Of a stretch of DNA of 14,217 nt, positions 13,023 through 13,961 are shown piece after piece. The notes beneath the pieces are model-generated. The model searched no databases and was not told the origin of the DNA. It saw nothing but the letters and a program-made list of their open reading frames with translations. How positions within the stretch are numbered: the first letter of the stretch is position 1; each line of letters opens with the position of its first letter. The position numbers were made by a program, and so were the translations under genes. Source of the stretch: a bacterium (GTDB taxonomy: Bacteria > UBP15 > UBA6099 > DSWB01); assembly GCA_020061125.1 (NCBI GenBank), contig JAGUYV010000274.1, forward strand, positions 1 through 14,217, read 5' to 3'.

Positions 13023-13051
13023 TTGAAACATGCGCGCGGGCCGCACATAAT
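13023..13051 (+). promoter_or_regulatory. Predicted sigma70-type promoter for the editing-domain gene
   Basis: TTGAAA (13023-13028) and CATAAT (13046-13051) are separated by 17 nt, each one mismatch from the consensus -35 and -10. It lies downstream of the rplQ terminator and upstream of the editing-domain gene. Transcription would begin near 13058, leaving a leader of about 120 nt before the ATG at 13181. No T-box specifier or antiterminator sequence and no other known riboswitch was recognised in that leader. Confidence 0.6.
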
Positions 13052-13180
13052 CACGCATAAGGCTGCCGAAAAATTCAGGGATGAGAAATCGCTGTTGTTC
13101 CTCACATGCCGTCAAGGAGCAGTTCGCCAAACCGGCAAGGCGCAAATCCGACGCCAAGGGAACAGGCTGGAGACAAATCA

Positions 13181-13597
13181 ATGAGACTTCTGATCTGGCA
13201 TGTGGATTCCTTCAAGAGCATCATCACCCAGAAAGGCCGTTCCGGCCTGGTGGAGGATCCCGGAGACAAGGAAACCTCGGTGGGCGAAGCGCTCATTGTG
13301 TTCACGGCCGCCGAAAAGCAGGATGAAGCGGACCCTGCCGCCACGGCGCACAAAGCCGCCGACCTGCTCGCCGCGCACGCCAAGAATGTCAAATGCCGCA
13401 CTATCGTAATTCACCCGTTCGCGCACCTGTTCGCCGACCTCGGCAGCCCTGAGCAGGCCGTTGCCATCATGGACACAGCAACGGAACTTCTGGCCGCGCA
13501 GGGGTTCGAGGCCATCCGCACTCCGTTCGGCTGGTTCAACAAACTCGAAATCAACGCCAAGGGGCACCCGCTATCCCGCGTGGCCAAACGAATCTGA
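13181..13597 (+). CDS. Freestanding archaeal-type threonyl-tRNA synthetase editing domain
   Basis: The 138-residue product resembles the N-terminal editing domain of archaeal ThrRS (DTD-like fold), which hydrolyses Ser mischarged on tRNA-Thr; no synthetase catalytic or anticodon domain follows. Matches are RLLIWHVDSF at the start, EALIVFTAAEKQDEADP (36-52), IHPFAHLFADLGSP (77-90) and TPFGWFNKLEINAKGHPLSR (114-133). H82 of HPFAHL corresponds to the archaeal catalytic His. In an ungapped alignment the other reported catalytic positions (Tyr120, Lys121, Glu134 in Pyrococcus, from memory) become F119, N120 and R133. The ATG at 13181 has CTGGAGA 7 nt upstream; an in-frame ATG at 13106 lacks a ribosome site. 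It is followed 43 nt later by a DsrE gene. Fold assignment is firm, substrate is inferred. Confidence 0.85.
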   Translation: MRLLIWHVDSFKSIITQKGRSGLVEDPGDKETSVGEALIVFTAAEKQDEADPAATAHKAADLLAAHAKNVKCRTIVIHPFAHLFADLGSPEQAVAIMDTATELLAAQGFEAIRTPFGWFNKLEINAKGHPLSRVAKRI

Positions 13598-13640: not shown

Positions 13641-13961
13641 ATGAAACTCGGCATCGTGATCACGCAGACAGAACCGGAGACCGTGTTCAACGCCCTGCGC
13701 TTCGCTTCCTACAGCCTGGAACAGGGCGACCAAGTGCGCATCTTTCTGTCTGGAAAAGGCGTGGAAATTGACGCCATAGAGGATCCGAAATTCGATGTCA
13801 AAGGCCAGGCGCGGAAGGTGGTGGACGCGGGCGGCGAATTTCTCGCCTGCGGAACCTGCCTCAAGCTGCGCAATTCCGTGGGTTCGGAAATCTGCCCCCT
13901 GTCAACGCTCAAGGACCATTACGAGATTGTGCGCGATTCGGATAGGCTTGTGACCGTGTGA
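13641..13961 (+). CDS. DsrE/DsrF-like family protein
   Basis: The 106-residue protein belongs to the small DsrE-like alpha/beta fold, whose members include the sulfur-carrier subunits DsrE and TusD and many uncharacterised proteins. It begins KLGIVITQTEPETVFNALRFA, has VRIFLSGKGVEID (32-44) and the conserved cysteine motif ACGTCLKLRN (69-78) with C70 and C73, plus C85 in GSEICPLSTL. The CGTC motif could carry persulfide or act as a redox pair; which is not evident from sequence. AAGGGAG (13626-13632) precedes the ATG by 8 nt. It probably shares a transcript with the upstream editing-domain gene. No DsrF, DsrH or TusE partner is adjacent, so a sulfite-reduction role has no support. Confidence 0.85.
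   Translation: MKLGIVITQTEPETVFNALRFASYSLEQGDQVRIFLSGKGVEIDAIEDPKFDVKGQARKVVDAGGEFLACGTCLKLRNSVGSEICPLSTLKDHYEIVRDSDRLVTV

Follow-up and report, generated by a model that had tools for sequence, protein, structure and literature searches.

A stand-alone archaeal-type threonyl-tRNA synthetase editing domain with a conserved set of pocket replacements in bacteria and archaea

What is the role of a free-standing editing domain of the archaeal type in a bacterium that already has a bacterial threonyl-tRNA synthetase (ThrRS) with its own N2 domain? This question is raised by a 14,217-nucleotide stretch of bacterial DNA (hereafter the window), which encodes a stand-alone tRNA-Thr_ED protein of 138 residues plus stop codon (positions 13181–13597, forward strand), recognized from its open reading frame, its match to PF08915 and an AlphaFold model with the DTD fold. 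An earlier note made from the DNA alone had considered such a protein unexpected in a bacterium, and the ThrRS found in the host bears this out. The gene is located 282 nt 3′ of rplQ, at the rpoA–rplQ end of the ribosomal operon. A GGAG Shine–Dalgarno-like site (13169–13172, forward strand) lies 8 nt 5′ of the ATG, and the start methionine is the same one used by the homologues in the alignment. Between rplQ and the editing-domain gene lies TTGAAA-17-CATAAT (13023–13051, forward strand), a promoter-like site from a consensus scan that found one such site versus 0.1 expected in shuffled sequences; this alone is no evidence of function. On the other side, a DsrE/DsrF-like gene of 106 codons (13641–13961, forward strand; PF02635, E = 1.1e-7) follows 43 nt 3′ of the stop codon and is possibly co-transcribed with the editing-domain gene. 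The window's own genome is a 4.1-Mb assembly of 513 contigs that is 79% complete, and a profile search of this assembly returns the window protein as its only PF08915 match.

The window protein is one complete, free-standing archaeal-type ThrRS editing domain. PF08915 spans positions 1–137 of 137 with 124.4 bits against a curated cut-off of 30.2 (E = 4.5e-36), and it is the sole Pfam match up to E = 1, the DTD family PF02580 being among those that give none. The open reading frame carries this domain alone, with no synthetase fused to it. Sequence searches of the PDB return archaeal ThrRS editing domains only, the best being that of M. jannaschii (4RRF, E = 1.7e-24). The family and the free-standing state assigned in the earlier note are thus confirmed. 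The AlphaFold2 model, which was built on 29 homologues (pLDDT 93, pTM 0.88), superimposes on 4RRF with Z = 23.5 and an rmsd of 1.3 Å over 134 residues, and on the P. abyssi domain (1Y2Q) with Z = 22.9. The editing domains matched in structure include substrate-bound ones. DTD comes next after the ThrRS editing domains, at Z of about 15, in line with a DTD fold. Compared with the archaeal domains PabNTD, MjNTD and ApNTD, the window protein shows about 30–34% identity and rmsd values of 1.2–1.7 Å, and it shares their PFG/KGHP and HPFAHL motifs and the residue His83. The archaeal domains are fused to a synthetase core and an anticodon-binding domain, whereas the window protein is unfused. DTD and ATD are also free-standing and have the same fold (Z = 15.3 and 13.2, respectively), but they share only 13–19% identity with the window protein.

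In and near the pocket, Tyr79, Ser85, Tyr120, Lys121 and Glu134 of the archaeal ThrRS domain (P. abyssi numbering) are replaced by His, Phe, Phe, Asn and Arg. Because there are no gaps in the alignment between PFG and KGHPLS, the correspondence of His83, Tyr120, Lys121 and Glu134 with His82, Phe119, Asn120 and Arg133 of the window protein is unambiguous, exactly as had been proposed. A structure-based check on the AlphaFold model does not restore the Lys and Glu at these positions, so the claim of an altered pocket stands. A GTDB genome scan, using an alignment of three members as the query, returned 30 relatives, and residues were counted in 30 distinct subfamily sequences and in 40 sampled ThrRS domains of archaea and bacteria. 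At the changed active-site pair Phe119-Asn120 (13535–13540, forward strand), Phe is present in 30/30 members versus Tyr in 37/40 ThrRS domains, and Asn in 27/30 (Ser, Phe or Thr in the others) versus Lys in 40/40. Arg133 (13577–13579, forward strand), corresponding to the Glu134 that reaches across the subunits to the α-amino group of the substrate, is likewise fixed (Arg 30/30 versus Glu 40/40). Thus, with Asn and Arg in place of the Lys and Glu found in all sampled ThrRS domains, the window protein does not qualify as an archaeal serine-editing ThrRS domain. Within the HPFAH segment (13412–13426, forward strand), position 78 is His in all 30 members and Tyr (Tyr79) in all 40 ThrRS domains, while His82 is invariant in both groups. 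Phe80 and Phe84 are invariant in the 30 members and differ from the residues of the ThrRS domains. In addition, Arg20 of the KGRS motif (13238–13240, forward strand) is Arg in every member, whereas the equivalent position in ThrRS domains is hydrophobic and variable. The FGW and KGHPxS motifs are invariant across the subfamily. The earlier suggestion that a catalytic lysine had moved by one position, to Lys121 of the window protein, is rejected, since residue 121 varies among T, R, K, A, I, E and S in the relatives and position 120 keeps its Asn in 27 of 30.

The Phe-Asn-Arg proteins form one clade, with a branch support of 96/91 in a tree using all columns. The subfamily labels for the residue counts had been assigned by the FGWF and SR motifs, so the tree was rebuilt without 14 signature columns; the subfamily still occupies one side of a single branch (98/99). 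A subfamily profile gives 185–223 bits for full-length members and at most 132 bits for other PF08915 domains. Eight close pairs with estimable dS have dN of 0.08–0.24 versus dS of 0.57–1.64 (NG86), indicating purifying selection. Bacterial carriers include Desulfocucumis palustris, a Peptococcaceae bacterium, Acetothermia, Nitrospinota, Tectomicrobia, Binatota, Ktedonobacterales and other Chloroflexi; D. palustris NAW-5, a named isolate, carries one member. The archaeal carriers are MAGs of Bathyarchaeota (Bathyarchaeia), Jordarchaeia and Freyarchaeota, Asgard archaea among them. Members were found in 2 of 119 genomes of the phylum of Desulfocucumis and in 13 of 47 genomes of the Ktedonobacterales order of one relative (L039). 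In Thermoproteota, one of 300 sampled genomes scores as a member (213 bits, versus at most 135 bits among the other matches listed). This patchy spread is likely due to horizontal transfer; no plasmid-borne relatives were found. Seven short archaeal open frames with PF08915 were not accepted as members, as they are without the Phe-Asn-Arg signature. A literature search, with subscription papers mostly outside its coverage, returned no description of the subfamily, and databases presumably annotate such proteins generically as 'ThrRS editing domain-containing'.

The host ThrRS (locus L003, 1183–2904) is of the bacterial type, and its tRNA_SAD/N2 domain is intact, with both the HSASH and CAGPH motifs. 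The window protein is therefore not a substitute for a lost N2 domain. The ThrRS open reading frame begins directly before N2, and a TGS (N1) domain was not detected in it. A search with the host N2 region gave a clear match in 20 of the 25 bacterial carriers; three of the others have none (G106, G112, G115), one has a contig-edge fragment only (G116) and one has an archaeal-type ThrRS instead (G001), absences that mean little in genomes that are mostly draft MAGs. A ThrRS-type editing domain is present in G001 and in 6/6 archaeal carriers (in one of these, G101, the remainder of the ThrRS-type protein is masked by N). With complete ThrRS editing in most carriers, the subfamily protein is no replacement for missing Ser-tRNA(Thr) editing. 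This setting differs from that of the archaeal trans-editing protein ThrRS-ed, which complements a ThrRS without editing. The two proteins have homologous editing domains (NF011500, E = 1.3e-19), and the window protein presumably also works in trans. However, it reaches only 70.4 bits against a criterion of more than 362, over model positions 2–133 of 387, it has no counterpart of the anticodon-binding domain of ThrRS-ed, and its pocket residues differ. Within the bacterial order of the window's genome, which uses a bacterial ThrRS with N2, some families (L007–L010, L012) use an archaeal-type ThrRS with a fused PF08915 domain; ThrRS has been replaced within this order.

The mechanism of the parent domain helps to interpret these pocket changes. 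In the archaeal domain, the mutants Y120A and E134A keep activity and Ser/Thr discrimination, neither His83 nor Lys121 catalyses the reaction directly, and the 2′-OH of the tRNA is catalytic; Glu134 crosses the dimer to the α-amino group of the substrate, and the mutation K121M severely impairs three archaeal domains by displacing water (Ahmad et al. 2015, PMC4491819). Catalysis by DTD is likewise RNA-based (PMC4491819). The residues once named as catalytic therefore do not have that role: Tyr120 and Glu134 are dispensable, and His83 and Lys121 do not act directly. Since catalysis in this fold does not come from side chains, the earlier idea of a different chemistry becomes less likely than that of a different recognition. 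These data also lend some appeal to an ordinary stand-alone Ser-tRNA(Thr) hydrolase that backs up ThrRS as ThrRS-ed does, in which the changes would be neutral as the pocket works through backbone and RNA; the tolerated Y120A and E134A mutations and the intact fold and backbone motifs agree with it. We nevertheless regard it as unlikely: nearly all carriers already have complete ThrRS editing, Lys121, the only residue on which activity consistently depends, is missing, and Phe119, Arg133, His78 and Arg20 are strictly fixed across phyla and both domains of life, unlike neutral change. The fixation of several new residues in and near the pocket across two domains of life speaks for a specificity that is new and conserved, not for drift.

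On balance we lean, with slightly better than even confidence, towards a predicted homodimeric DTD-fold aminoacyl-tRNA deacylase that performs RNA-assisted trans-editing through a retuned pocket, on a target other than Ser-tRNA(Thr). This view builds on the family, the fold, the residue replacements, the clade, the purifying selection and the coexistence with complete ThrRS editing, from which we infer the dimer, the deacylase activity and the mechanism. The subfamily, scattered in bacteria and some archaea, would have a common origin with the editing module of archaeal ThrRS. Its conserved PFG and KGHP backbone segments probably bind the 3′-terminal adenosine of the aminoacyl-tRNA, and the 2′-OH of A76 would activate the water as in the archaeal domain. 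Recognition of A76 through the backbone, and hydrolysis based on RNA, should survive in the subfamily. Asn120 may hold the water in place of Lys121. Phe119, His78 and Arg20 would retune the pocket together with Arg133, a cross-subunit residue standing where the archaeal domain has the Glu that contacts the α-amino group of the substrate; with this Arg the amino acid may be recognized differently, perhaps with a preference for a substrate that is negatively charged or lacks a free amino group there. Its most likely target would be a mischarged amino acid different from Ser on tRNA(Thr), removed beside the normal proofreading by ThrRS and DTD.

Three points weigh against this deacylase reading. 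The harm caused by K121M in three archaeal domains might equally result from the Lys-to-Asn change. The published mutants tolerate loss of side chains in the pocket, which counts against a substrate change deduced from pocket residues. Moreover, neither neighbourhood nor co-occurrence in the sampled carriers points to one particular substrate. The first of these points also bears on a catalytically dead scaffold, or a tRNA- or nucleotide-binding protein repurposed from the editing domain: the lysine needed for positioning the water is replaced, and no functional partner is apparent. Yet DTD naturally has Met at the Lys position and works, and the strict conservation is centred on the pocket (His82, Phe119, Asn120, Arg133 and KGHP), as expected of a pocket that still functions and not of a decayed one, which makes a dead protein rather improbable.

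DTD itself provides a further comparison. Of the 25 bacterial carriers, 21 encode a canonical DTD, including G001 from the same order as the window's genome; none was found in the six archaeal carriers or in the window's own assembly, which is 79% complete. A deacylase of D-aminoacyl-tRNA or Gly-tRNA that stands in for DTD would be consistent with these absences and with the shared fold (Z about 15). But the co-occurrence in most bacterial carriers means that the subfamily protein usually does not replace DTD, weakening both that role and the D-aminoacyl-tRNA substrate suggested earlier. In addition, the protein is far closer to the ThrRS domain than to DTD in sequence and structure. We consider this stand-in role very improbable.

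The neighbourhoods were compared across the sampled subfamily loci. No neighbour recurs across lineages, and the rplQ/ribosomal context is not common to the relatives, so a function drawn from operon context is rejected. The large neighbour clusters shared between loci look like alternative reading frames over the editing-domain gene itself. tRNA genes are absent from the neighbourhoods of the subfamily loci except for a few in L026 and L038. In two Asgard genomes (L030 and L032, 5046–6426), cysK is located directly 5′ of the editing-domain gene, suggesting an operon of the two; in L047, cysK lies a few kb away. The Desulfocucumis locus contains a TtcA-like PP-loop gene with a score under the TtcA cut-off. 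Together with the DsrE-like gene in the window, these genes hint at a weak sulfur/cysteine theme.

The sulfur theme gives room for a more specific form of the deacylase reading. A reliance of the parent editing domain on U73 has been reported (PMC8762117). This reliance, combined with the sulfur/cysteine genes adjoining a few members (cysK in the two Asgard genomes, the TtcA-like gene in Desulfocucumis and DsrE in the window), makes tRNA(Cys) a candidate. The subfamily may tentatively be seen as a new trans-editing family, patchy in bacteria and archaea, whose charge-swapped pocket (Lys/Glu to Asn/Arg) would clear a mischarged tRNA without a known editor, conceivably a tRNA with U73 that carries the wrong amino acid, tRNA(Cys) for instance.

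The literature describes stand-alone tRNA-Thr-ED genes of archaea in the vicinity of SepCysS, as well as SepRS fusions from a few bacteria that retain the serine motif (PMC5424206, 2017; PMC8762117, 2022); they contain the same domain as the window protein. Three genomes of the window's order carry a fusion of PF08915 to a class II synthetase of the SepRS type (L016 1501–3411, L014 and L015, in G001, G003 and G002), and TIGR00470 scores above its cut-off in G001, G002, G003 and G005 of this order. The presence of such fusions in order-mates makes a role in the SepRS/SepCysS system attractive. This role is rejected, because SepRS was not found in the window's own genome (79% complete) and the fusions keep Tyr-Lys-Glu and belong to a clade separate from the window subfamily. 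No recognized SepRS or SepCysS neighbour is present at the sampled members or at the window gene, which is flanked by rplQ and the DsrE-like gene instead.

The subfamily is genuine and conserved, and it varies a proofreading module that is already known. Time and again, stand-alone editing proteins have pointed to translation errors that synthetases leave uncorrected, and the pocket of this subfamily departs from the Pyrococcus domain at exactly the positions whose necessity is debated. It bears on the claim that the fold works without particular side chains, and could reveal a new mischarging error. The coexistence with complete ThrRS editing and the fixed pocket swap make a search for the substrate worthwhile, and the proteins are compact, conserved and experimentally tractable.

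Other PF08915 proteins outside the subfamily also depart from the ThrRS pattern. A bacterial frame of 183 residues (L006 in G019, 1501–1902) contains a divergent PF08915 domain (FGYFLDLDISAPGISRAR) without the KGHP motif, on a very long branch. Three further archaeal stand-alone PF08915 proteins (L114, L115 and L116) show different pocket changes, with Arg-Asp-Lys or Glu-Lys-Gln where the P. abyssi domain has Tyr120, Lys121 and Glu134. Their genomes also encode a full ThrRS, and these proteins are possibly further specialized editors.
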